Origin: Nitrosomonadales bacterium
GTDB lineage: Bacteria > Pseudomonadota > Gammaproteobacteria > Burkholderiales > Gallionellaceae
DNA length: 64,000 bases
Assembly: GCA_016234685.1 (NCBI GenBank)
Contig: JACRAT010000043.1
Location: 124,001 to 188,000, forward strand
Reading direction: 5' to 3'
The notes beneath the pieces were generated by a model. That model was not told where the DNA came from and made no database searches. It worked only from the letters and a program-made list of their open reading frames with translations. A program made the translations under genes and the position numbers. Below are positions 1-13,340 of this stretch, piece by piece. How positions within the stretch are numbered: position 1 is the stretch's first letter; the number at the start of each line of letters is the position of its first letter.

Positions 1-448
1 CGTGGTCGAGCCACACGCCAAGAATAATGGCGAGCAATAGGTAGATGCCGGGTAGCAGAGCGTCAATCTGAAATAACAATAGAGGGGAAATGGCGAGTAG
101 GCCGCTTCCGATGAGGGCGGTTTCTGGGTCGAATCGCTTCTCAGCCCAAGCATGAGACAGCGAGATGGTGATGGCGACGAGGATGACGCTGAATACCTTC
201 GCTGCAATCAGGCTTCCTGTCCACAAAAAACCAACGGGTAAGAGCAAAAGGGCTCGAAGATCAGGGGCGCCCAAGGTAACGACGGTGCTGGCAACCTGAT
301 CGGCGATGGACCAGGTAAGCAGCAGGGCTTTTGCGCCACCCTCATCAAGGCCGTAGGGGCTATTGTTTAAGAGGAAGATTGCTAGTCCTCCCCAAAGTGT
401 TAATGCGATGTGGCCAAAATGGGGGCGGAGAGCTGAAAGAATGGACAT
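1..448 (-). CDS. Polytopic membrane protein, C-terminus runs off the left edge (partial)
   Basis: My own reverse-strand translation: MSILSALRPHFGHIALTLWGGLAIFLLNNSPYGLDEGGAKALLLTWSIADQVASTVVTLGAPDLRALLLLPVGFLWTG..., open to base 1 and strongly hydrophobic; absent from the ORF track because it is not closed. Confidence 0.7.
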   Translation of the reverse strand, partial: MSILSALRPHFGHIALTLWGGLAIFLLNNSPYGLDEGGAKALLLTWSIADQVASTVVTLGAPDLRALLLLPVGFLWTGSLIAAKVFSVILVAITISLSHAWAEKRFDPETALIGSGLLAISPLLLFQIDALLPGIYLLLAIILGVWLDH

Positions 449-587: not shown

Positions 588-617
588 TTGACAATGCAAC
601 AAACAGGGTCTTATTAT
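588..617 (+). promoter_or_regulatory. Sigma70-like promoter TTGACA-N18-TATTAT upstream of the oxidase cluster
   Basis: TTGACA at 588-593 and TATTAT at 612-617, in the gap between the divergent gene at 1-448 and the first cluster ORF at 740. Confidence 0.5.
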
Positions 618-739
618 TTGCCCGAGCTATATATTTCGCGAAGATTGCTCTGGGGTGCAGGTTCGGTGGTCAGCGAGAGTGTGTCTCTAGAGGTTTGTTT
701 TCTTGTTTAGAGTTTGATGCTTAATAGAGGGAGGGGAAG

Positions 740-1009
740 ATGGAAAAAAAGTCAATTGTGTCAAAGTCATTTTGGGTGATTGTCATTGCAGGCATGACGA
801 CCGGAATGGGGAATGGGAGTGTGTTTGGTGCGGCAGTGATGTGTCTGCTGGGTCGTGGGCCTTTCGCTGATTGGGGCGGTCAAGGTGCGCTGGCCTACTC
901 GCCAGCTACGTTCTCGGGTTTTCTCGTCTGGTGCATGATTTTGTTCGGAGTGGCATTCTCGGCAATTATGGCTATTGGTATGTCTCGCCATAACGCGATG
1001 GAAAACTAA
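740..1009 (+). CDS. Small membrane protein, first gene of the oxidase cluster
   Basis: 89 aa, two hydrophobic stretches, purine-rich SD (gaggggaag) just upstream. Confidence 0.65.
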   Translation: MEKKSIVSKSFWVIVIAGMTTGMGNGSVFGAAVMCLLGRGPFADWGGQGALAYSPATFSGFLVWCMILFGVAFSAIMAIGMSRHNAMEN

Positions 1010-1059
1010 AAACACTGTTTTTTTGTATTTTTGTTCTAAATTCAAGGGAGGATAGAAAC

Positions 1060-1161
1060 ATGGCAACAATCGCTGGATTGCTTGGGGTGCTGCTAGCATT
1101 TTCGAGTATGGTGCTTTCGTGGTATGTGATGACGCCAAAGAAAAAGAATGAGCAGAAGTGA
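1060..1161 (+). CDS. 33-aa single-TM micro-protein (MATIAGLLGVLLAFSSMVLSWYVMTPKKKNEQK)
   Basis: Below the ORF-track size limit; SD-like AGGGAGGA upstream, one TM helix with a basic tail, lies between two cluster genes on the same strand. Confidence 0.55.
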   Translation: MATIAGLLGVLLAFSSMVLSWYVMTPKKKNEQK

Positions 1162-1227
1162 TCCCGGTTGTTTGGGGGTCGTAATCGCGCTAGATAAGCC
1201 TGAATAGAGCTAAAGAGGAGATGTAGA

Positions 1228-2634
1228 ATGCTCAAATATTTATTTGCAAAAAATGAGGATATTCCGACCGGAACAGCGGCGGTGTTCTTTGGTTTTTCGT
1301 CCATAGTCTGGTTCGTTATTGGAACTGGTCTGGGGTCTTTCAATGCGGCAAAGCTGGCATTCCCTGATTTTGTTATGGGGAATGAGTTCTTGGCGTTCGG
1401 TCACTTGCGTCAAGTGCACGTCCATGCAGTGATTTTTGGCTGGATTTCGATGGCGTTTGCGATGGCGATGATGTACATCACGCCGGCCTTGGGTAATACA
1501 AAGCTGTGGTCTGAAAAGCTGGGTGTGTGGAACTGCTTCCTGTGGAACGTGGGTCTGTCACTGGGCTTGACTGTACTTTGGGCTGGGATTACATCTGGTC
1601 GTGAATACTCGGACTTCCCTTGGTTCATTGACTTGTACATCGCTTTGTTCATTGCGATTCCGCTGTCGCTGAATGTTTGGATGACCGTGATCACTCGTCG
1701 CACTCAGGGTATCTACACGACTAACTGGTTCTTCGTGGGTGCTTGTTTCATGTTGATCATCGTGTTCCTGATCGGCAATCTTCCTGAGTTCTTCCACTTG
1801 ACTGGTTTGACGGAGGCGTATCTGACATGGTGGTTTGCTCACAACGTGCTCGGCCTGTGGATTACTCCTGTTGCAGCCGCGATTGCTTACTACACCATCC
1901 CTAAGGTTACGGGTAATCCTCTGTACTCTCACCGGATCGGTCACCTGCACTTCTGGTCTGTTGTGGTGTTCTACTCGACCCCGGCTGCTCACCACTTGAT
2001 GTCTGCACCTTTGCCTGAGTGGTTGAAGTCGTTCGCTTCTGTTGAGGGTGTGCTGATCTTGGTTCCTGCCGTTGCGTTCGTTTCCAATATCTTGCTGACC
2101 ATGCAGGGTAAGTGGAACATGTTCGTGGAGAACTTGGAAATCCGCTTCACCATCACTGGCTGCTTGCTAGCTATTCCGCTGAACATGCAAGGTGGCTTCC
2201 AGCAAACTCGTGCGATTAACTGGTATGTACACGGTACCGGCTGGATCGTTGCTCATGCGCACTTGGCGTTGCTGGGTTTCTCTACCTTCCTTGAGGGTGC
2301 TGCGGTGTATCTGGGTCTTCAGACCCTGATGAAGAGAAAGCTGTACTCGCTGACTTTGGGTAATGTGCACTTCTGGTTGTTGTTGATTGGCTTCGCGATC
2401 TACTGGATCTCGATGACGATCGCTGGTCTGATTCAAGGCGCGGGTAAGATTTACGAAGTGCCTTACATTGATGTGGTTATCGCTGAACACCCATACATGA
2501 TCGCTCGCTGGATCGGCGGCACTATGGTGTTCATCTCGAACGTGGTTTGGTTGTACAACATGTGGATGACTGCTCGCGAAGGCACTGTAGTTCCCGCAGG
2601 TCGTATGCCTCATGAATTGGCCTACGAGCGTTAA
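1228..2634 (+). CDS. Divergent cbb3-like (C-family) heme-copper oxidase subunit I, CcoN-like
   Basis: Ligand motifs visible: HVHAVIFGW (helix II His), WWFAHN (CuB His), FYSTPAAHHL (matches CcoN LYIWAGPHHL including the Tyr and His-His), VAHAHLALLG (helix X His pair). Confidence 0.85.
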   Translation: MLKYLFAKNEDIPTGTAAVFFGFSSIVWFVIGTGLGSFNAAKLAFPDFVMGNEFLAFGHLRQVHVHAVIFGWISMAFAMAMMYITPALGNTKLWSEKLGVWNCFLWNVGLSLGLTVLWAGITSGREYSDFPWFIDLYIALFIAIPLSLNVWMTVITRRTQGIYTTNWFFVGACFMLIIVFLIGNLPEFFHLTGLTEAYLTWWFAHNVLGLWITPVAAAIAYYTIPKVTGNPLYSHRIGHLHFWSVVVFYSTPAAHHLMSAPLPEWLKSFASVEGVLILVPAVAFVSNILLTMQGKWNMFVENLEIRFTITGCLLAIPLNMQGGFQQTRAINWYVHGTGWIVAHAHLALLGFSTFLEGAAVYLGLQTLMKRKLYSLTLGNVHFWLLLIGFAIYWISMTIAGLIQGAGKIYEVPYIDVVIAEHPYMIARWIGGTMVFISNVVWLYNMWMTAREGTVVPAGRMPHELAYER

Positions 2635-2663
2635 TCAATACTCAACGATTTGGGAGAATAACT

Positions 2664-3605
2664 ATGAATTTTAGAGAGTATAAGGTTGGCGCAAGACTGT
2701 TCTCGTTTGCGCTGGGGTCTTCGATGGTCATCACGCTTCTGTTTCCAGCCATGGAAATGGGCGCGGCGGTTGCGACGGATATCGCGTTGGACAAACAGTT
2801 GAGTGCTGGCCGTGAGACCGGTTTTAACTATGATGATCCGTTGATGTTGGGCTGGGGCAAGCCGTCCAAGGTTTTGGTGAGCGCAGACCCGGTTTCTGGT
2901 CAGCCGATTCCAGCTACGTACGCCTATGTGTACCCGGCTGGCACACCCTTCCCTAGCGGTATTTTGCATCCGCGCACTTTGGGTTCTGCCGGTGCAGGTC
3001 TGTCTGAGAAGGTCGGACGTGTTGGTGAGGCTCAGAAGAAGTCGGGAGCTGTTTTCCTGATTAAGAGTGATGAGCAAAAGCATTTCTATATCGAAAATGC
3101 AACGGCTACATTGGGCTGGGCGCCAGATGCAGTACTGAAGGCGGCTTTGGATGAGAATGTTGCTCATGTTGGTGCAGGTAAGACGCAGTTCGTTCGTGAA
3201 GGCTGCTGGTGGTGTCATACTCTGCTGCCAGAGCAAACGCAGGATTGGCAGGTCTTCGGTGCGCCTCCAATGTTGGGTGACTTCAATGGTGAGTCTCCCA
3301 CTGCGTTCGGTTCTGACCGGAAGGCTCCAGACTTGTTGCACGTAGCTTCACGCAACTCTTCTAAAGAGTGGATGATGTTGCACTTCTTCAATCCTCGCTT
3401 GGTGCAGCCGCACTCGATCATGCCTCGGTATGATTACTTGTGGGGTGAGAAGGATGCAACTGGAGCCAAGATCGACTTCAATAAGTGGCGTGCCGAGTAC
3501 ACCGAGTATAGCGAGGGCAAGCGGGCTGATGCGCCTGAAGTGCCTTCCTTTGCTAAGGATAGCCGGATCCGCGATCTGGTCGATTTCATGCTGAGTCTTA
3601 AATAA
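2664..3605 (+). CDS. CcoO-like membrane-anchored monoheme cytochrome c subunit
   Basis: N-terminal TM; single CXXCH (REGCWWCHTLLPEQTQDW) in a CcoO-like context; SIMPRYDYL; directly follows the CcoN-like gene. Confidence 0.8.
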   Translation: MNFREYKVGARLFSFALGSSMVITLLFPAMEMGAAVATDIALDKQLSAGRETGFNYDDPLMLGWGKPSKVLVSADPVSGQPIPATYAYVYPAGTPFPSGILHPRTLGSAGAGLSEKVGRVGEAQKKSGAVFLIKSDEQKHFYIENATATLGWAPDAVLKAALDENVAHVGAGKTQFVREGCWWCHTLLPEQTQDWQVFGAPPMLGDFNGESPTAFGSDRKAPDLLHVASRNSSKEWMMLHFFNPRLVQPHSIMPRYDYLWGEKDATGAKIDFNKWRAEYTEYSEGKRADAPEVPSFAKDSRIRDLVDFMLSLK

Positions 3606-3618
3606 GGGGAGCGCTACT

Positions 3619-4242
3619 ATGTCATGGGTATTTTCCAATCCACTAGTAACATTGAGTGATTCTGAAAAGAATGAACGGGATAAGGCGCTTTGGGAGGCTG
3701 AGGACCTAGGTGGGATCACTGAGGACAACAATCGCGTGCCGGTTCCGGTTGTTGCTCTGGTTTTCCTGACTGTGCTGACTGCATTTGCGATTACCTTCCC
3801 GCTTTGGGGGCAGCGTCCAACTGCGGCAATCTATGTTGACTATGTCAAAACCCTAAACTCTCCTGAAGTTCAGGCGATTCAGGATGATGCCGTAGCCATG
3901 CAAAAGATTGTTGATGCTAACAAGGGTAGTGCTCAGGCTTCGCAGATAGAGCGCCATCCTGTGTCTTTGGATGACCTGCGTATCTTGGCTCCTCAAATCG
4001 AAGCGTTGCAAAAGAACGGTGCCGATTTGCGCGAGTACACAGTGGTCGGTCCGCAGGTTGTACTCTCCAACTACGAGGGTAATAAGAAGGCTGACGGTAC
4101 TAGAGAGCGCTTCCAGCCTTGGTGGGATATCGGTTACACAATCGATATTTTCTATCTGTTGGCGTTCTTCTTGGGCGCAACCATCGTCATCAAGCGCTTG
4201 CCTCCCAGCAGCTGGGAGCCGACGCATAAGCATGATCATTGA
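3619..4242 (+). CDS. Unrecognised membrane subunit with FPLWGQRP motif
   Basis: 207 aa, two TM segments flanking a soluble domain; shares the TM-FPxWGxRP module with the ORF at 11766-12191. Confidence 0.7.
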   Translation: MSWVFSNPLVTLSDSEKNERDKALWEAEDLGGITEDNNRVPVPVVALVFLTVLTAFAITFPLWGQRPTAAIYVDYVKTLNSPEVQAIQDDAVAMQKIVDANKGSAQASQIERHPVSLDDLRILAPQIEALQKNGADLREYTVVGPQVVLSNYEGNKKADGTRERFQPWWDIGYTIDIFYLLAFFLGATIVIKRLPPSSWEPTHKHDH

Positions 4243-4288
4243 TTGATTTGCCTATATTTGATTGTAATAAATTTACTAGGAGATAATA

Positions 4289-4414
4289 ATGATTGAGCTT
4301 GACAATGGTCCGATCGCAATTGGTTTGATTATCGCAATTGCGTACCTAGGCCCGCTCGTTTTCAGCTTCTTTGTGGATAACTACGACAAGAGTTCTCCGC
4401 AAGTCAAAGCTTGA
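4289..4414 (+). CDS. 41-aa single-TM micro-protein (MIELDNGPIAIGLIIAIAYLGPLVFSFFVDNYDKSSPQVKA)
   Basis: Below the ORF-track size limit; SD TAGGAG at 4277-4282; one TM helix. Confidence 0.6.
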   Translation: MIELDNGPIAIGLIIAIAYLGPLVFSFFVDNYDKSSPQVKA

Positions 4415-4435
4415 TTTGACAGCAGGTGAGTAAAG

Positions 4436-4460
4436 CAATGCCGCCCGATGGGCGGCATTG
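4436..4460 (+). promoter_or_regulatory. Perfect 11-bp-stem hairpin (CAATGCCGCCC-GAT-GGGCGGCATTG) in the oxidase transcript
   Basis: Perfect inverted repeat with a 3-nt loop between ORFs 4289-4414 and 4497-4799; no clear T-tract follows. Confidence 0.7.
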
Positions 4461-4496
4461 TCATGTTTGGAAGTCGATAATAAGGAGTTCGTTAGT

Positions 4497-4799
4497 ATGC
4501 AGCTTGATATGGTAGGTACTGCTCATGGGCTGCTGATACAGGCGGGAGAGGGTGTTTCGCCAAGTTTGGATTTGAGTATAGAAGGAATGCGGAGCCAAGA
4601 GTTTAGTGTAGGGGTGTTCGTGTTTATGCTCTTAGGGGTGTTCGTCTTTTCAGGTATCGTTTTTACGGTTATGTTCGGTAAGTCGGCCCCCAAAACGATG
4701 AAGCGGGGCGAAAAAATTCTCTTTGGTGCCATTATTCTGGGTATCATTGCCGCCGTTGCTTTTGGTGCAACACAGATGCTTTCCGGCTATCTGTTCTAG
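4497..4799 (+). CDS. Small membrane protein, two TM helices
   Basis: ATG at 4497 preceded by AAGGAG (4482-4487); preferred over the 4458 start, which overlaps the hairpin. Confidence 0.65.
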   Translation: MQLDMVGTAHGLLIQAGEGVSPSLDLSIEGMRSQEFSVGVFVFMLLGVFVFSGIVFTVMFGKSAPKTMKRGEKILFGAIILGIIAAVAFGATQMLSGYLF

Positions 4800-4814
4800 T
4801 CTAGCGAGGAAAAT

Positions 4815-5087
4815 ATGGGATTTTTTGAATCATTGGGTGATGGATGGACTATCTATCTGTGGCTGATAATCGGCGGCATGATTATCATCGCTGCGATTTA
4901 TGGTATTCGTTGGGCGTCCAAGAATGAACAGTTTGATGAGGACATCAAGTATCTAGTCTTCAATGAAGGCGATCAGGACAAAATGACCCCTGAGGAATAT
5001 GCAAAAAGTCGGGAAGTCTTGGTTGCACAAGAAAAGAGCCGAGAGCGTCACTTGAAGTTAGAAGAAGAGCGTAAGAAAAAGAAATGA
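4815..5087 (+). CDS. CcoS/FixS-like small membrane protein
   Basis: One TM helix followed by IRWASKNEQFDEDIKYLVFNEGDQD, resembling the CcoS pattern FWAVrsGQFDDLegpahRIL..DD. Confidence 0.5.
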   Translation: MGFFESLGDGWTIYLWLIIGGMIIIAAIYGIRWASKNEQFDEDIKYLVFNEGDQDKMTPEEYAKSREVLVAQEKSRERHLKLEEERKKKK

Positions 5088-5575
5088 AGCGCGGGGAGAA
5101 GGTAATAATCCTAATCATCGTCTTGGTAGTGGCTGTGGCGATGGCAAAAAATATCTGGGTCCAGCACACGACCAAGGAAGTCGATCAGGGCATACCTTAC
5201 TATTCTACTGCGACGCCCGAGCTGTCGCGGACTGCGATGGATATCTACCGCGAGAATGGTTGCAAAAAGTGCCACTCGCTATGGACGGTGAAAAATATGC
5301 AAGAAACGGTGCCAGCTCCTATTTTGGACGGCATAGGCTCTTTGCGTACCGAGGAATGGCTCTACAGCTATCTTTCGGCCGAATCGCCACAGGAAATTCT
5401 CCCGACCAGATTGCTTCCAGAATGGAAGATGCCATCTTATGCCAAGCTCTCAGAGCAGGATCGTAAAGCACTGGCTGGCTATCTGGCGAGCCTGAAGGTC
5501 AAGGATTGGTATCTGGAAGATACGCGCAAGGCTGAATATCAGAAGCTCACAGGTAAGCCATACAAGCATGAATAA
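5084..5575 (+). CDS. Membrane-anchored monoheme cytochrome c
   Basis: N-terminal TM, ENGCKKCHSLW heme-binding motif, later EWKMPSYAKLSEQD; ATGA overlap with the upstream gene. Confidence 0.85.
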   Translation: MKRGEKVIILIIVLVVAVAMAKNIWVQHTTKEVDQGIPYYSTATPELSRTAMDIYRENGCKKCHSLWTVKNMQETVPAPILDGIGSLRTEEWLYSYLSAESPQEILPTRLLPEWKMPSYAKLSEQDRKALAGYLASLKVKDWYLEDTRKAEYQKLTGKPYKHE

Positions 5576-6032
5576 AGAACGCCTGACCAACGGATTCGTC
5601 GCACTGCTGTTGGGCAGTGCGTTGAATCACTTCGGAGATAGGCTCCTTGGGGTGCAAATCGAGGTCTTCAAGGGGTTGGAAAGTTTTAGTCCCTTGTGGA
5701 TTGCTGACGTTTTCGTCTTGCCGTTCTTTGTCGGATTGTTGGTTGCGGCGATCTTCGGCATGGGAGGGAAATGGTTGTGTTACTTCCCGCCTCTCATCGT
5801 ACGGAGTATCGCCTATGTTCAAATCATGAATGCACCGCATCTCTTGCCGGGTGAGCATTTGCTGCCTTTCGGTTGGTGGGGATTTTTCGTGATCCTTGCT
5901 ATGGAGGCGGCGGCCTTCGGCGGGATACTTGGCGAGATCATGATAAAGAGCACGTACGGCAGACGCCCCCGTCACTTGGTATACAAGGATAAGAATGCGC
6001 CGGCAGATGCGGGCGTTGAAGTGAAAGAATGA
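5568..6032 (+). CDS. Polytopic membrane protein of the oxidase cluster
   Basis: 154 aa, hydrophobic, overlaps both neighbours. Confidence 0.65.
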   Translation: MNKERLTNGFVALLLGSALNHFGDRLLGVQIEVFKGLESFSPLWIADVFVLPFFVGLLVAAIFGMGGKWLCYFPPLIVRSIAYVQIMNAPHLLPGEHLLPFGWWGFFVILAMEAAAFGGILGEIMIKSTYGRRPRHLVYKDKNAPADAGVEVKE

Positions 6033-7108
6033 CACAGCCTCACATCGGTTATAAGTCGGTCGTTACGGTCGAAGAGCGCGCGCGTCGTAAGCGTTATCTC
6101 TCTGCTACCATCGTAACCTGCCTCGTTCTGGCCATCATCGGCGGAAGTGTTCACGTGGTTCAGCTGGGCGCTAACCGCGTGTCTGACATGCGGAACAAAG
6201 CCACCTACGATCTGAAAGAGGAAAGTTCCAGAGTTCGTGCGGCTGGCGAAGATGTCTCGTTGCATAAGATCAACGAAGACAACAAGGATGTGGTTGCGGG
6301 CTACACGCAAGACCAGATCGAGACCTTGATCCCCCAAGCTGAGTGGGCCGAGTTGGATCAAACCGTCTTGATCACTGCGGGCGAATTCCAGATGGGAACG
6401 GATTTGGAGCGTGCCGATGCGCAGAATCATCCTCAGCACGGCGTGCAACTGGGCGCATATGAAATCGACAAATATCCTGTCACCAACGCGCAATATGCCA
6501 AGTTCGTGGCGGCCACCGGCCATCGCCCTCCCTTGCATTGGAAAGACGGCAAGATCCCCTTGCATGAGCTGAAACATCCTGTCACCTTGGTTTCTTGGTT
6601 CGATGCGGCGGCCTATGCCAAATGGGCGAACAAGCGTCTGCCCACTGAGGCTGAGTGGGAGAAGGCCGCGCGCGGAAGCGATGCGCGGCGCTGGCCTTGG
6701 GGTAACACGATGGAGCCAACGCGTTTGAACACCTATTACAACGTCGGCTCGACGACGGATGTGACCCGTTATCCCGAGGGCGCAAGCCCCTACGGCGTGA
6801 TGGATATGGCGGGCAATGTGAACGAATGGACGGCAGATGATTTCAAGCCTTACGACGGCAGCAAGGCGCCGGAAGATTTGTTCCAAGGTAAGGTTGCTCG
6901 TGCAGCCAGCGATCAGGACAAAGCGCTTAAAGTGGTCGACTTGATGCCTGTCGGCGGGCGCTACAAAGTACTGCGTGGTGGCTCATGGAAGGGCGACCCC
7001 TTCTCGACAGCGACCTTCCATCGAAACTATGCATGGCCGAATTACGCCTCCGACTTTTTTGGGTTCCGCTGTGTGCGGGATGTCCAGCACGAAGGAAAGA
7101 AAAAATGA
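6029..7108 (+). CDS. SUMF1/formylglycine-generating-enzyme-like domain protein with N-terminal TM
   Basis: GEFQMGTDLERADAQNHPQH, RLPTEAEWEKAARG, YGVMDMAGNVNEWTADD, VLRGGSWKGDPF...GFRCVRD; ATGA overlap with upstream gene. Confidence 0.9.
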   Translation: MTQPHIGYKSVVTVEERARRKRYLSATIVTCLVLAIIGGSVHVVQLGANRVSDMRNKATYDLKEESSRVRAAGEDVSLHKINEDNKDVVAGYTQDQIETLIPQAEWAELDQTVLITAGEFQMGTDLERADAQNHPQHGVQLGAYEIDKYPVTNAQYAKFVAATGHRPPLHWKDGKIPLHELKHPVTLVSWFDAAAYAKWANKRLPTEAEWEKAARGSDARRWPWGNTMEPTRLNTYYNVGSTTDVTRYPEGASPYGVMDMAGNVNEWTADDFKPYDGSKAPEDLFQGKVARAASDQDKALKVVDLMPVGGRYKVLRGGSWKGDPFSTATFHRNYAWPNYASDFFGFRCVRDVQHEGKKK

Positions 7109-7350
7109 ACACAAGTGGATACCTCTCGCGCATCGCCGGGGTGCTGTGTCTTACCCTGTTATGGACTGAACCGAGCTGGGCGATGGATAGCTACCGCTAT
7201 CTACATGTCTCCATCGACACCCCGTGGTATATCTTCATCTTTCTGCTGACCATCTTCTTCGCCCCATTCCTGTTGATGGCGATCTTGGTCTGGCGTTATG
7301 CCGAGCGCAAGAAAGAACACAAGAACGCGGCATCGGGAGAGCAGAAGTAA
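7105..7350 (+). CDS. Small membrane protein
   Basis: Internal ATG at 7105 overlapping the upstream TGA; MNTSGYLSRIAGVLCLTLLWTEPSWAMDS... (signal-like) followed by a TM. Confidence 0.6.
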   Translation: MNTSGYLSRIAGVLCLTLLWTEPSWAMDSYRYLHVSIDTPWYIFIFLLTIFFAPFLLMAILVWRYAERKKEHKNAASGEQK

Positions 7351-7739
7351 TGATCGGTAAGACTTGGGATGTGGTATCGGCGTGCCTGCGTCACGCCATG
7401 CTGGCCTTGTCGCTGAGCTTGTACTTTCTCGCGCCGACGGCCTTGGCAGCACAGCCACCAACTGAAGCCAACGCGACAGCGGTGATGAAAGCCTTTAAGC
7501 AACAGGAAGAAGCGGCTGCCGCCGCAGCGAACCCGGAGCGGGATCATCAGCGCCAGGTCATCATGTTCCTGCTCGGTGCGCCGTTGCTGGTGTTGCTGCT
7601 CATCACCGGCGGACTGGGCATCGCCATGGGCATCTATGGCAAGCGCGTATTCGTTCCGCACACGATCTTTGCCGGGCTGACTATGACGTTGGCCTTGGTG
7701 CATGTGGTCGTCGGCTTGGTCTGGTTCTACCCCTTCTAG
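7350..7739 (+). CDS. Small membrane protein
   Basis: ATG at 7350 overlapping the upstream TAA (TAATG); signal-like N-terminus and two TM helices; ends VVGLVWFYPF. Confidence 0.6.
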   Translation: MIGKTWDVVSACLRHAMLALSLSLYFLAPTALAAQPPTEANATAVMKAFKQQEEAAAAAANPERDHQRQVIMFLLGAPLLVLLLITGGLGIAMGIYGKRVFVPHTIFAGLTMTLALVHVVVGLVWFYPF

Positions 7740-7820
7740 CCATCATAGCTTGCCTCGGTCTGCCATCGTGTCGGGGGCAATCTTTTCAGGCATTCGTGCC
7801 ATTAAAACTAAGGTGTGAAC

Positions 7821-10472
7821 ATGCTTGAGGGGAAGAGTCTGCCGACTCAGCCGAATCTCTCCAATCTGTACTGGCTGCTGGCGGCGCTTTACGGCATATC
7901 CGGCCTGACCAGCGTTGCCTACGAGGTGCTGTGGGTGAGGATGCTCTCGCTGCAATTCGGCGTCAGTGTGTTCGCTGTCGTGCTGACCGTCACTGCCTTC
8001 ATGGCTGGACTGGGGGCGGGCAGCCTGTTCGCCGCACGCAAACTGGCACACATCCAAAAACCACTGTTGTTGTTCGCCGCGCTGGAGGGGGGCATCGCGC
8101 TGTATGCCTTACTGTTGCCCACCTTGATGCACGCCTCTTCCGGCGGCATCGAGGCGGCGGCAGCGCAGCTTGAGTTGACGCAATGGTATGTCCTGCAAGG
8201 TGTCGTGGCGGTGCTGCTGCTGATGCTGCCCGCCTTTGCGATGGGCGCAGGCTTTCCGCTCGTGCTGGCTGCGCTGGGCAACGTCCCCTCGCGCTTGGGC
8301 CCGATCTATGGGCTGAATACGTTGGGAGCGGCGTGCGGGGCGCTGTTGCCGTTGGGTTTGCTGCCGTTGTTGGGATGGGGCGGTGCGGTCAGGCTCATCG
8401 CTGTTCTGGGCGTTCTGGTCGCGTTGGCCGCCGTGCTGCTGTCCGTGCGCTTTGCCGTCAGATCGGAGACAGCGCCAAGTGCGCCCGTCGTCCGCCCGTC
8501 CTGGGCGACCTTGCTGGTCTATGCGGGCATAGGCGCGTCCAGCTTGATCTTGGAGATAGGCTGGACGCGCTTGTTCGGTATGGTGATGCTGCGCACCGAG
8601 TATGTGTTGGCGATCATCTTGGCGGCATTCTTGTTGGGCATAGGCTTGGGCAGCTTGTTCGCACCCGCGCGGCACAAAGAAAAGTGGTTCCTCGCGCTGC
8701 CCGTTCTGGCCTGCGGCTTCGCACTGCTGAGTCTGTGGGCGTTGCCGTTCTTGTCGGCATGGATAGAGCGAGCGGAATTTGTCTCGTTATTCTTCGCCTT
8801 GAGTACGCAAGGCTTGGTGCTGGCCTTGCTCACCTTGCCGGTCACTTTGGTGTTGGGGGCGTGGCTGCCCTTGCTGCATGGACGCACGCAGGGCGGCGGT
8901 ATGTGGCTGTATGGTGCGAATTCGCTGGGTGCTGCGCTGGGGGCGATGTTGGCGGGCTTTGTGCTGATCCCCTTGTTGGGAAGTGCCGCCACGGTCGTGA
9001 TCGCGGCGCTGGTGTTGCTGGTGTTGGGGCTTTGTTGGGCTGCGTCACGGGCCGCTTGGCTCGCCGTGCCCGTTCTGGCTGTGGCGGCTTGGCCCTTGCT
9101 CAAATTTCCCGAGGTCAGCGCCTTGCTGCCCAAGGCGCAAGTCCGCAGCCAGAACCTCTATCTGTACGAGGATGCGGTCTCCATCACCCATGTCGTCGAG
9201 CAGCGCGATGGGCAGCGCCTGTTGCTGACCGATCTCCAGCGCATGGATGCCTCCACTGAGCCGACTGCCGTCTATGTGCAGGCCAATCAGGCGCGCCTGC
9301 CATTGTTGCTGCATCCGCATCCGCGCTCGGTGTTGTTCCTCGGATTGGGCACGGGTATCAGCGTCTCCGGTTCTTTGCCCTTCCCTGATTTGCAGCGCAG
9401 TGCGGTGGAGTTGTCGCAGGGGGCGATCATCGCCTCTGAGCACTGGTTCGCTTCAGCTAACCATGACGCGATGAAGCAGACTCATGTTGCGCGTGACGAT
9501 GCCCGGCATTATCTGAGTGCGACGACTGAGCATTACGATGTCATCATCGGCGACGTGTTCCATCCTGATCTGGTCGGGTTGAGTTCGCTGCTCTCGGTGC
9601 AGCAATTCCAACGCGCGCGTGAACGGCTCAGCGACGACGGCATCTTCGTGCAATGGCTGGCGGTGAACCAGTTCGACAAGGAATCGCTGCGCGTGGTGTT
9701 GCGCACTTTCCGGCAAGTCTTCCCCGAAGCGCAATTGTTCCTGGATGGGATGCATTTGGCGCTGGTCGGACCGCGTCAGCACTTTGCCGGTGCAGCCGGG
9801 GTGATGCGCAATCTGCAACGTATGTCGCCCGATCAGCAAGAGGCGGCCACAGCGGGCGAAGGCGGTTGGACTTGGCTGGGGCGCTATTGGGGCGCGATCC
9901 CCGAGAGTGCTGGGCCGGTGCAGGACGAATGGTCGCCGTTGCTGGAGTTTCGCTTGCCGCGCGCTCGTTACGCAGGTGAACTGGATGTCGCGGCGATGCT
10001 GAACGTGCTGCTGCGAGTCAGGCCACGTATGGACAAGGCGGCGGAGTCGCTAGGCGTGACTGAGGGCGATCACGAGTCGTTCGAGCGTGGCTATGCGGGA
10101 ACGGAGCTGATGGTGCGCAGTTGGCTGGCGGGCATGGAAGGCTCTCCGCAGCAGGCCACCCATCTGGTGCGCATGGCCTATCAGGCCAACCCGCGCGATC
10201 ATTGGACTACATTAGCATTGGCTGATACGATGCTGGCGTCGCTCTCGCAGGCTAGGCAGCATGGGCTGAGCGAGAAAGATGCCCTGCATCAGATCTTGCG
10301 CATCAACCCCCAGCATGTCGAGGCCTTACGCGCGCTTTGGCGTATCGAGCGCCAGACTGGCGATCCGGTAGCCAGCGCGACACGTGCCCGCTTGCTCGAA
10401 TTGAGTCCGTTTGACCGTGAGGCCCGCCAATCAGGAGATCAACCGCATGTCCGCCAGCCCCCAGCCCCGTAA
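7821..10472 (+). CDS. Fused polytopic membrane / spermidine-synthase-like protein
   Basis: N-terminal multi-TM half, then an SAM-type Rossmann domain (VLFLGLGTGISVSGSLP..., EHYDVIIGDVFHPDLVGLSSLLSVQQF) and a helical C-terminus. GTG at 7815 is an alternative start. Confidence 0.85.
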   Translation: MLEGKSLPTQPNLSNLYWLLAALYGISGLTSVAYEVLWVRMLSLQFGVSVFAVVLTVTAFMAGLGAGSLFAARKLAHIQKPLLLFAALEGGIALYALLLPTLMHASSGGIEAAAAQLELTQWYVLQGVVAVLLLMLPAFAMGAGFPLVLAALGNVPSRLGPIYGLNTLGAACGALLPLGLLPLLGWGGAVRLIAVLGVLVALAAVLLSVRFAVRSETAPSAPVVRPSWATLLVYAGIGASSLILEIGWTRLFGMVMLRTEYVLAIILAAFLLGIGLGSLFAPARHKEKWFLALPVLACGFALLSLWALPFLSAWIERAEFVSLFFALSTQGLVLALLTLPVTLVLGAWLPLLHGRTQGGGMWLYGANSLGAALGAMLAGFVLIPLLGSAATVVIAALVLLVLGLCWAASRAAWLAVPVLAVAAWPLLKFPEVSALLPKAQVRSQNLYLYEDAVSITHVVEQRDGQRLLLTDLQRMDASTEPTAVYVQANQARLPLLLHPHPRSVLFLGLGTGISVSGSLPFPDLQRSAVELSQGAIIASEHWFASANHDAMKQTHVARDDARHYLSATTEHYDVIIGDVFHPDLVGLSSLLSVQQFQRARERLSDDGIFVQWLAVNQFDKESLRVVLRTFRQVFPEAQLFLDGMHLALVGPRQHFAGAAGVMRNLQRMSPDQQEAATAGEGGWTWLGRYWGAIPESAGPVQDEWSPLLEFRLPRARYAGELDVAAMLNVLLRVRPRMDKAAESLGVTEGDHESFERGYAGTELMVRSWLAGMEGSPQQATHLVRMAYQANPRDHWTTLALADTMLASLSQARQHGLSEKDALHQILRINPQHVEALRALWRIERQTGDPVASATRARLLELSPFDREARQSGDQPHVRQPPAP

Positions 10473-11757
10473 AGTTATCCCCATCAAGCTGGTCGGCGCC
10501 AAGAAGCCTCCTGAGCCTAGCCACTTCCACTGGAAACGCCGCGCGGTACAGATCGCCACGCTGATTCTAGCAGTGCTGATCCCCGCTAGTGGTTTGTTTC
10601 GCATCGACCCGATGGCGGGCGCTTTTGTGGTGCTGGATCGGCAGATCTGGCTGGGCGATTTCTTTATGATCATGGGGTTGTGGGTGTCCATCGTCAGCTT
10701 GTTGGTGCTGGTCTACTCCACGGTCGGCACCGTGTTCTGCGGCTGGGTCTGCCCGCAGAACACGCTTTCGGAGTGGGCGAACCAGCTCACCCGCAAGATG
10801 CTGGGCAAGCGTGCCGACATGAGCCTTTCCTCGGGTTCGATGGTGGTGGCGGCAGATAAGAACAAGGTGCTGAACTGGCTGATACTGGGCGGAGCTTTTT
10901 TGGTTGCCTCCCTGTTGCTCGCGCTCATTCCGCTGTTCTATTTCTATCCGCCGGAGATGGTCTGGTCTTTCGTCACGTTTCAGGACGATCCGAATCTGGC
11001 GCGCTCCTTACACTGGATCTACGCTTTTGCGGTGGCGATCACGTTCTTGGACATCGCCATGCTGCGCCATTTCTGGTGCCGCTTCGCTTGTATCTACCGC
11101 ATGTGGCAGCACTCGTTCAAGACCAAGCAGACGCTGCATGTAGCCTACGACGCGACGCGCGCCGAAGACTGCGCCAAGTGCAACTACTGCGTGACGTCGT
11201 GCTTCCTCGACCTCGATCCGCGCAAGACCGATGTCTATTCGAGCTGCATCAACTGCGGCGAATGTATCGACGCCTGTGATCGGCTACATGCCAAGCAGGG
11301 CGAGGCCGGCTTGTTGAAGTTCGAGTTGGGCGCGCGCGAAGACAAGCTCAGCAAACTACGCGATGCGAGCTATTCTTTGTTCTCGCGTGTGGGCTGGACG
11401 ACGCCGTTCGCCATCATCGGCGCGGTCATGTTCACTTGGGGCTTGCTGACTTACGATCCCTATCATGTGACGGTCTATCGCGGCGATACGGCAGAGGGGC
11501 GCAACTTCCAAAGTTACCGGATCGCGGTATCCAACAAGATGTATCATTCCGCGCAGTTTGCTGTGAAGGTCAATGGCTTGCCGCAGGGCAGCTACCAACT
11601 CAGCGAGGAAGCCTTCGAACTCGGGCCGGTGGGGCGTGAATCGGTCACACTCAGTATCTTGCCGGGGATGCAGCATGGGCTGGCGTCTTTTGTGGTCGAA
11701 GTTGAGGCGGCGGACGGTTGGGTAGGGCGCTTCCCGATCCAGCATTTCACGAAATAG
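10447..11757 (+). CDS. CcoG/FixG-like 4Fe-4S membrane protein
   Basis: VFCGWVCPQNTLSEW, CAKCNYCVTSCFLDLDPRK, SSCINCGECIDACD; C-terminal Ig-like domain typical of CcoG. Confidence 0.88.
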   Translation: MSASPQPRKVIPIKLVGAKKPPEPSHFHWKRRAVQIATLILAVLIPASGLFRIDPMAGAFVVLDRQIWLGDFFMIMGLWVSIVSLLVLVYSTVGTVFCGWVCPQNTLSEWANQLTRKMLGKRADMSLSSGSMVVAADKNKVLNWLILGGAFLVASLLLALIPLFYFYPPEMVWSFVTFQDDPNLARSLHWIYAFAVAITFLDIAMLRHFWCRFACIYRMWQHSFKTKQTLHVAYDATRAEDCAKCNYCVTSCFLDLDPRKTDVYSSCINCGECIDACDRLHAKQGEAGLLKFELGAREDKLSKLRDASYSLFSRVGWTTPFAIIGAVMFTWGLLTYDPYHVTVYRGDTAEGRNFQSYRIAVSNKMYHSAQFAVKVNGLPQGSYQLSEEAFELGPVGRESVTLSILPGMQHGLASFVVEVEAADGWVGRFPIQHFTK

Positions 11758-11765
11758 GAGGGGCG

Positions 11766-12191
11766 ATGTCTGCAAACGATGAGAAGAAAAAGATCCCGCT
11801 GACCGCCGTCGAAGAGTCGAGTTGGGGGCAGGATACCGCCAGTCATTTTGGCTACGCGAACGACGAAGAGCGTCGTGCCAAACGCGGTCTGGAAGACTGG
11901 GAATTGGTGGAAAAGATCCCGGAGTCGCAGGCGGGGATCCCGTTCTGGTTTCTGTCGGTCATTCTGACCGTGCTCTTGGTGGCAGTCGGCCTAAGTTTCC
12001 CGTTCTGGGGCGATCGTCCCGGCTATGAGCGGGCGTGGGTGGATTGGGGGTTCGGTGCGGCGCTGGTTTATGTCACAGCGGCAAGCGCGCTGGTTTATTA
12101 CATGGTGAAGCTGTATGGCTCCAAAGATGGCGGACGGCTGGATTCGGATACGAACAAAGATGGCACAGATGAAGCTGAACAGAACAAGTGA
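11766..12191 (+). CDS. Membrane protein with FPFWGDRP motif, similar to part of ORF 3619-4242
   Basis: GIPFWFLSVILTVLLVAVGLSFPFWGDRP vs VPVPVVALVFLTVLTAFAITFPLWGQRP in 3619-4242. Confidence 0.65.
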   Translation: MSANDEKKKIPLTAVEESSWGQDTASHFGYANDEERRAKRGLEDWELVEKIPESQAGIPFWFLSVILTVLLVAVGLSFPFWGDRPGYERAWVDWGFGAALVYVTAASALVYYMVKLYGSKDGGRLDSDTNKDGTDEAEQNK

Positions 12192-12585
12192 TTCGCTGGC
12201 ATTCGCGCGGCTCGGCAGTGTCGTGCTGTTGTCTGGCCTGCTGGCTTCGTGCGGTGGAGAGGATGCCGGCGCGACCATCCCGACGCAGCAATGGCAAGGC
12301 GTGGAGATACGCGTCGAATCTAGGCCGATGCCACCTCAGCCGGGGATGAACGAATTTCTGGTGATGGCGACAGGCGCGCGCGGGCGCCCAGCTTTCGACT
12401 TGATGGTGTCTTTGCGCACATCCGATCAGGATGTTTGGCGGCAGGCGATACAGGATGGACAGGTCGGTGTCTATCGCCGTGCCGTGGATGTGGAGCCGGG
12501 TGAGCGCTCGGTGTTGCAGGTGCAGATCAAGCGCAAGGGAGAGGAAAGTGTGCTGCGCTTCCCTCTCGGCGTGGTTGCGAAGTAG
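12160..12585 (+). CDS. FixH/CcoH-like putative lipoprotein
   Basis: Lipobox-like LLASCGG; C-terminal FixH-like pattern (WRQAIQDGQVGVYRRAVDVEPGERSVLQVQIKR); follows the CcoG-like gene. Start may be 12169. Confidence 0.55.
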   Translation: MAQMKLNRTSDSLAFARLGSVVLLSGLLASCGGEDAGATIPTQQWQGVEIRVESRPMPPQPGMNEFLVMATGARGRPAFDLMVSLRTSDQDVWRQAIQDGQVGVYRRAVDVEPGERSVLQVQIKRKGEESVLRFPLGVVAK

Positions 12586-12587
12586 TC

Positions 12588-13103
12588 TTAAGCGCTAGCC
12601 TTCTTACCGAGCAGCAGCGTCAGCGCGATATTGAGCATATAGACGCCGAAGCCCGTCGCCATCACGATGCCGGAGCCAGCGACCACAGGGCCATAGTAGC
12701 CGTGTACCACGATTTGATCCGGCGAATTGCTTAGCAGCAGATTCCCTTCCCACACGCCAAAGATGATGAGCGTGGTATAGAAAAAGAACACGCCCATGCT
12801 GGTCCACCAGAACGAGTGGTTGATCAAGCGTTGCGAGTAGATCGGCTTGCCGCTGAAGATGGGTAGCAGATAGTACGAGATGCCCATCGCCAGAATCACC
12901 ACTCCGCCAACCAGATTCAAGTGAGCGTGAGCCAGCGGGTCGATCATGTGCCCGGGGCCGCCGAAAGGGCTGCCGATGGAATCCAGCCAGAGGCGCACCG
13001 CAGGGATTACCTGCAACATGCCGTGCATCGCGCCGACGAAAAATGACGCTGCGGACATCAGCACGAATTTCACCAGATAGGGGTGTTCGGTTGTTGGGCT
13101 CAT
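12588..13103 (-). CDS. Stand-alone fragment-like heme-copper oxidase subunit I homolog (C-terminal helices only)
   Basis: PLAHAHLNLVGGVVILAMGISYYLLPIFSGKPIYSQRLINHSFWW aligns with IVAHAHLALLGFSTFLEGAAVYLGLQTLMKRKLYSLTLGNVHFWL of the CcoN-like protein. Confidence 0.7.
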   Translation of the reverse strand: MSPTTEHPYLVKFVLMSAASFFVGAMHGMLQVIPAVRLWLDSIGSPFGGPGHMIDPLAHAHLNLVGGVVILAMGISYYLLPIFSGKPIYSQRLINHSFWWTSMGVFFFYTTLIIFGVWEGNLLLSNSPDQIVVHGYYGPVVAGSGIVMATGFGVYMLNIALTLLLGKKASA

Positions 13104-13124
13104 GAAGGTATTGTGCGTAAGGAT

Positions 13125-13155
13125 AAAAAAACACGGTCTATACGACCGCGTTTTT
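13125..13155 (-). terminator. Intrinsic-terminator-like hairpin with A/T-rich arms
   Basis: AAAAACACGGTC-TATAC-GACCGCGTTTTT, with T-rich sequence on the minus strand after the stem. Confidence 0.6.
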
Positions 13156-13232
13156 ACAAAGACAGAACAAACGATTTGCTTTTGAAGCGCCGAGGTACGC
13201 CGTAAGCGCCCCCGGCCTAGCCGGTGAGTCGA

Positions 13233-13340
13233 TTACTTCTTGCTCACTTCTTCAAGGCGCTGAACTGCGGCGCTGGAGCAGGCGACGGAAACCACGATGC
13301 CCAAAACGAAAATCCCAACTGGTACCAACAATGTAAGCAT
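13233..13340 (-). CDS. 35-aa single-TM micro-protein (MLTLLVPVGIFVLGIVVSVACSSAAVQRLEEVSKK)
   Basis: Below the ORF-track limit; GGAGAGGG SD upstream; hydrophobic N-terminus and charged tail; terminator-like hairpin downstream. Confidence 0.55.
   Translation of the reverse strand: MLTLLVPVGIFVLGIVVSVACSSAAVQRLEEVSKK

Follow-up and report, generated by a model that had tools for sequence, protein, structure and literature searches.

The window analysed here is a stretch of 64,000 nucleotides from a Nitrosomonadales bacterium of the family Gallionellaceae (assembly GCA_016234685.1, contig JACRAT010000043.1, positions 124,001 to 188,000), and it carries, at window positions 740-12585, a variant cbb3-type oxidase cluster of 17 co-directional, mostly overlapping genes, all of them on the plus strand. 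The genes are arranged in two halves that are separated by an RNA hairpin: the first half reads ORF89, s33, CcoN, CcoO, p207 and s41, while the second half reads p104, CcoS-like, cytc, p154, a protein with the fold of formylglycine-generating enzyme (FGE), p81, p130, a spermidine-synthase fusion, CcoG-like, p142 and a lipoprotein. A gene for a CcoN fragment, located on the minus strand (12588-13103), converges on the 3' end of the cluster. An earlier note on this DNA had described a CcoN-like and a CcoO-like gene followed by a run of co-directional, mostly overlapping genes, all of which are present; it had overlooked the two microproteins s33 (1060-1161) and s41 (4289-4414), the CcoN fragment, and a companion unit that is introduced below.

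Our comparison is based on a scan of species genomes within Pseudomonadota, which yielded 200 confirmed relatives, and on 80 loci that were fetched for synteny; since many of these loci end before the downstream genes, the counts out of 80 give minimum values for those genes. The CcoN of the fetched relatives is 82-93% identical to that of the window, and the same gene order occurs in nearly all loci that are long enough, from Gallionella, Sideroxydans, Nitrotoga, Ferrovum and Gammaproteobacteria. The conserved cluster comprises 16-17 genes, including those of 33 and 41 residues, and it is not a product of chance, because 80 independent loci show the same order and the same reading frames. Rearranged or shortened clusters have been observed at locus L019, where the best matches to the first genes are shifted by about 9 kb, and at loci L027, L035 and L043, where later genes are missing or have moved.

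The catalytic subunit, a CcoN-like protein of 468 residues (1228-2634; PF00115, 254 bits), scores 203 bits against solved CcoN and 35 bits against NorB. Among 92 relatives, the six histidine ligands of haem b, haem b3 and CuB are invariant, and the cross-linkable tyrosine of helix VII (Tyr249, equivalent to Tyr251 of Pseudomonas stutzeri) is present in 92/92, as the earlier note had expected of an oxygen reductase. In P. stutzeri numbering, the K-channel-type residues T213 and Y221 are kept and S240 is replaced by Gly in all 92, while E125 is replaced by Asp and E323 by Gln throughout the clade; the Gln at position 323 is common to other non-canonical C-family proteins. The match to the TIGR00780 equivalog (224 bits) is below its cut-off of 583, and the match of the CcoO-like partner to PF02433 exceeds the cut-off. 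On its ligands, helix-VII Tyr and CcoO-like partner, the cluster is predicted to encode a cbb3-type oxygen reductase.

In the CcoN tree, the clade of the window has support of 100/100 (99/93 together with a 60%-identical sister) and is separate both from canonical CcoN and from two further groups of the C family; the rooting is unsure, because the single NorB outgroup sits on a very long branch. The oxidase itself belongs to a clade known from the literature, which does not hold for the set of its subunits. Nitrotoga, one of the carriers, is aerobic, and the Nitrotoga fabula genome has been described with a predicted cbb3 oxidase; in six Nitrotoga genomes we have found no other full-length COX1-family protein, a pattern that repeats across assemblies that may be incomplete, and CydA was not found in five of the six. 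Tree, synteny and the Nitrotoga genomes together bear out the earlier proposal that this is a distinct assembly of the C family, with additional membrane proteins and a link to lithotrophs. Open frames of 1034-1053 residues with a CcoN domain were also seen in Gallionellaceae (L099:2579-5683 and L100:3687-6848) and are apparently a third, fused C-family type.

The CcoO-like subunit (2664-3605; PF02433 (FixO), 60 bits) carries a single haem c site, CWWCH, and an extra domain of about 115 residues (about residues 50-165). The predicted model of the extra domain has a pLDDT mostly above 75, and that of the haem domain gives a weak fold match to CcoO of cbb3 oxidases (TM-scores 0.2-0.36), with a haem loop of low confidence; a fold search with the predicted models returned no match for the extra domain and none for p207. 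A check of all 17 proteins of the cluster found a CXXCH motif in no others than CcoO and cytc, a membrane-anchored monohaem cytochrome c (5084-5575; CKKCH), which agrees with the two monohaem cytochromes counted earlier, and no dihaem cytochrome is present among them. That the canonical ccoNOQP order and a dihaem CcoP are absent, as the earlier note stated, holds for the cluster and not for the genome, in which another contig (C40) carries a canonical ccoNO(Q)P with a dihaem CcoP.

The place of CcoP in this cluster is best approached through p207 (3619-4242), a protein without a haem site that combines an anchor segment with a second helix (QPWWD.GYTID). FixP_N (PF14715), the N-terminal anchor of CcoP, is matched by 39 of 45 members of the p207 family (best E 9.7e-5), compared with at most two members in each of the other families, and in direct profile comparison the p207 family matches FixP_N at 78-86%, compared with less than 10% for nine control families. 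Further downstream, p142 (11766-12191) is a paralogue of p207 (profile match 91.5%) and matches the FixP_N protein of the 60%-identical sister cluster at 93%; this protein, a p207 homologue of 114 residues, scores 26.2 bits against FixP_N, above the cut-off of 24.9. A profile match over 26 columns (91%) connects the second helix of p104, a two-helix membrane protein (4497-4799; 74/80 loci), with the anchor of cytc. By profile comparison, p207 and p142 are predicted to be relatives of the CcoP N-terminal anchor that lack haem, and therefore CcoP appears to be split into haem-less anchors and single-haem cytochromes. CcoO, cytc and a NorC-like cytochrome of the companion unit contribute one haem c each, i.e. 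three haems on separate chains, canonical cbb3 also having three, and we infer that the separate-chain haems replace the CcoP arrangement. CcoQ has no Pfam match in the cluster (no CcoQ-specific model was used), and the two single-helix microproteins are located at comparable places.

The remaining genes of the first half are short and strictly conserved. ORF89 (740-1009), a small membrane protein with the conserved motif TGMGNGSVFG...MC..GRG.F..WGG, occurs in 80/80 loci, the reading frame of the 33-residue s33 is likewise kept in 80/80, and the 41-residue s41 is found in 74/80. The pN/pS ratios are 0.3-0.4 for s33, s41 and p104 and are mildly informative for these three only, because synonymous sites are saturated and pairs of the same length are possibly misaligned. 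Upstream of ORF89, a strong sigma-70-like promoter (TTGACA-N18-TATTAT; 588-617, plus strand) was read from the sequence, a pattern that occurs about 160-220 bp 5' of the first gene in 37/86 loci.

The gap between s41 and p104 holds a conserved RNA hairpin (4415-4496, plus strand) with a z of -3.2 in the window and a z below -2 in 49/66 relatives; in two other gaps such values occur in 6/53 and 4/74, and in the p207-s41 gap, which is likewise close to where the structural half ends, in 16/26. The genes from ORF89 to s41 lie on one side of the hairpin and the maturation genes on the other, as would be expected if ORF89 to s41 were the structural set.

The second half contains recognisable maturation factors and several membrane proteins. 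The CcoS/FixS-like protein (4815-5087; PF03597, 19.5 bits) and the CcoG-like Fe-S membrane protein (10447-11757; TIGR02745, 130 bits) are both present, conserved in the former case, and both score below their model cut-offs (23.1 and 317, respectively). The FixH-like factor of the earlier note is weaker: the gene in the FixH position (12169-12585) encodes a lipoprotein with the lipobox LLASC, has no Pfam match, and is seen in 23/80 loci, many of which end earlier. The FGE-like and the membrane-fused spermidine-synthase-like proteins were correctly recognised. The former is membrane-anchored (6029-7108; PF03781, 192 bits) and holds only two Cys residues, one of them in a membrane helix, so that it cannot carry a catalytic Cys pair; RGGSWKGDPF replaces the well-established catalytic Cys motif of FGE, and an active formylglycine-generating enzyme is ruled out. 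The latter is a multi-helix membrane protein fused to a spermidine-synthase-like domain (7815-10472; PF01564, 36.9 bits, above the cut-off; 58/80 loci). Three other membrane proteins complete the set: p154 (5568-6032; 67/80 loci), p81 (7105-7350; 63/80 loci; motif DSYR..HV.I.TPW.IF.FLL), which also occurs in the sister cluster, and p130 (7347-7739; 60/80 loci). Among the membrane proteins that the earlier note had left unrecognised, p207 and p142 can now be placed as relatives of the CcoP anchor and p104 by its cytochrome anchor segment. A divergent membrane protein of 467 residues lies at the edge of the window (1-447, minus strand, continuing at L085:11045-12448); its relatives adjoin the cluster in 30/45 loci and are often accompanied by a membrane protein of 65 residues.

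The CcoN fragment at the 3' end of the cluster (PF00115, 41 bits) belongs to a group of stand-alone four-helix proteins of about 170-200 residues with an invariant HxH, which we refer to as CcoN-thirds, because it is the C-terminal third of CcoN to which they align, the other two thirds giving weaker alignments. Two types accompany the oxidase: type B, found here, lies beside the cluster in several relatives, while type A is part of a companion unit, together with a dihaem Cyc1-like cytochrome and a membrane NorC-like monohaem cytochrome. This unit is located directly upstream of the cluster in many relatives; among 45 loci with 9 kb of upstream sequence, the Cyc1-like gene occurs in 43/45 and the NorC-like gene in 40/45, a few of the latter being possibly the cytochrome of the cluster itself. 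In the genome of the window, the unit sits on another contig (C26), in the order Cyc1, NorC-like, CcoN-third. Within Gallionellaceae, the CcoN-third of type A is present in 45/46 genomes with the oxidase and in 2/112 without it (Fisher test, 7e-36, which ignores relatedness). To our knowledge, there is no precedent for a working subunit that consists of a detached third of a haem-copper oxidase. A conserved membrane protein of about 150 residues (no Pfam match) and a thioredoxin-like lipoprotein were seen to accompany the unit, in 34/45 loci each (L005:7152-7610, L022:5717-6271).

Members of the oxidase clade occur in Gallionellaceae, Nitrotoga, Ferrovum and some Gammaproteobacteria, and also in a second class, which is probably Zetaproteobacteria. 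Within Gallionellaceae, the CcoN proteins fall into two groups by their identity to that of the window, one at 77% or more and the other at 34% or less. This oxidase type occurs in 32/369 sampled genomes of the class and in 42/399 of the phylum, the positives of the phylum sample coming mainly from one family of another class (77-80% identity). None of the 512 matching records of the plasmid collection is of this type: all are below 60% identity, the best at about 34%.

Besides its canonical ccoNO(Q)P, the genome of the window has cytochrome bd and a Cyc2 that is 75% identical to a Cyc2 of the genome which we take to be Sideroxydans lithotrophicus ES-1, and its content appears consistent with an iron oxidiser. 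The presumed ES-1 genome, whose CcoN is 89% identical to that of the window, holds exactly two CcoN: one of this type (2.694 Mb), with a dihaem Cyc1-type gene adjoining it and the type B CcoN-third beside its cluster, and a canonical one (0.416 Mb, 32%). In the published ES-1 transcriptome, two cbb3 clusters of different subunit composition are reported, both highly expressed and assigned to the subtrees that Ducluzeau 2008 calls proximal and distal; a cyc1 homologue is reported to be associated with a cbb3 cluster; and papers on Zetaproteobacteria and other Gallionellaceae use the same two names (PMC8788666, PMC10734462, PMC7029218). The oxidase is therefore not a wholly new lineage, an idea that we have ruled out since ES-1 carries the same lineage and published papers name it, and the word "uncharacterised" in the earlier note has to be withdrawn: the lineage is already in print as one of two cbb3 forms of Fe(II)- and nitrite-oxidisers, with ES-1 transcript data. 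From the CcoN lineage, the 89% identity and the adjacent Cyc1-type gene, which are shared with the second cbb3 cluster of ES-1 and Zetaproteobacteria, the oxidase is predicted to be one of the two known ES-1 clusters, proximal or distal. The same papers, in their available parts, say that the clusters differ in subunit composition and do not describe the accessory anatomy (PMC8788666, PMC7029218, PMC10734462); no description of the accessory subunit set was found in the open-licence literature, and one may exist elsewhere.

Compared with canonical ccoNOQP oxidases (TIGR00780; PDB 3mk7, 6xkw, 8smr), the cluster shares the CcoN active site, the monohaem CcoO subunit and the CcoG/CcoS factors, but its CcoN is only about 31-33% identical, the dihaem CcoP and the ccoNOQP order are absent, and the CcoO extra domain and many membrane proteins are added. 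Three-gene oxidases (ccoN, ccoO and a monohaem cytochrome c) also lack a dihaem CcoP and have Gln at position 323, but their CcoN is 34% identical, they form a separate branch, and none of the extra genes is annotated; plasmid-borne operons of this kind were seen in Paraburkholderia and Azoarcus (L111, L113). For the cbb3 cluster of Ferrovum JA12, the available part of the report lists no more than subunits I and II, suggests that co-localised cytochromes take the place of subunit III, and does not analyse the accessory genes further (PMC4725956); our own comparison is with F. myxofaciens P3G (L053), not JA12. The sister cluster (L098, G216:C157, 404-6672) has a smaller gene set: a monohaem cytochrome, a CcoN-third, a membrane protein of 72 residues, CcoN (60% identical), a short CcoO without the extra domain, the FixP_N-like protein of 114 residues, two membrane cytochromes, a CcoS-like and a p81-like protein, with further cytochrome genes and a protein of 512 residues with one CXXCH near its N-terminus located upstream. 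It seems to be a simpler form of the system in the window.

We consider it probable, at roughly 85%, that the cluster encodes a C-family oxygen reductase of the known second cbb3 lineage, in which CcoP has been taken apart and which performs the terminal step of lithotrophic respiration. Electrons would pass from Cyc2 to Cyc1, to a membrane-anchored monohaem cytochrome, to the haem c of CcoO, to haem b and finally to the haem b3-CuB centre, where oxygen would be reduced; what our comparison shows of this scheme is the active site and the co-occurrence of the companion unit with the oxidase. The N-terminal anchor of CcoP would survive as the haem-less p207 and p142, while cytochromes with one haem each, separately anchored, would stand in for its two haems; the small proteins would be structural or assembly subunits, and the hairpin (4415-4496) would allow higher expression of the structural genes than of the accessory ones. 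Two points weigh against this interpretation: the match between p207 and FixP_N covers a short stretch of about 38 residues and, for the p207 of the window itself, does not appear at E<=1; and with Gln at position 323 and Gly at position 240 throughout the clade, the proton pathways may differ. A bolder form of the same interpretation, which we hold only tentatively, is that of a lithotroph C-family subclass with a dismantled CcoP and detached CcoN-thirds, possibly binding haem b, joined in one large complex that docks Cyc1.

The CcoN-thirds and the NorC-like cytochrome could instead be a redox module in their own right, such as a haem-b sensor or a unit that docks or oxidises Cyc1, as the location of the unit on another contig in the genome of the window, with its own gene order, would suggest; its near-perfect co-occurrence with the oxidase and its position directly upstream of CcoN in the sister cluster speak against this, and we find it rather doubtful. 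Slightly less probable still, and in our judgement unlikely, is an ordinary cbb3 oxidase consisting of CcoN, CcoO and one soluble cytochrome, with neighbours that are only maturation factors: the CcoG-, CcoS- and Trx/Sco-like factors are indeed typical assembly proteins, and three-gene operons without the extras are annotated elsewhere, but the microproteins, p207 and ORF89 are kept as strictly as CcoO and lie between or adjoin the catalytic genes, and the conserved hairpin sets the genes from ORF89 to s41 apart from those for maturation. A nitric oxide reductase or another superfamily member that does not reduce oxygen, to which the NorC-like anchors of the cytochromes and the Gln for E323 might point, is very improbable, and identity with NorB is ruled out by the invariant CcoN-type ligands and helix-VII Tyr, the bit scores given above and the genome context, this protein being the sole full-length haem-copper oxidase of the six genomes of aerobic Nitrotoga.

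The proposed oxygen reductase with a dismantled CcoP is thus known as to its core, which is the recognised second cbb3 lineage, and apparently new as to the structural anatomy of its cluster: the haem-less CcoP remnants, the CcoN-thirds, the haems on separate chains, the FGE-fold protein without catalytic Cys and the conserved hairpin. Models of microbial Fe(II) oxidation (Cyc2 to Cyc1 to oxidase) and of nitrite oxidation in Nitrotoga are least well defined at the terminal oxidase, and with the list of conserved candidate subunits, "cbb3-type, subunit III missing" becomes a set of complexes that can be tested. The loss of haem domains from CcoP and the use of a single CcoN repeat unit are also of interest for the evolution of haem-copper oxidases.

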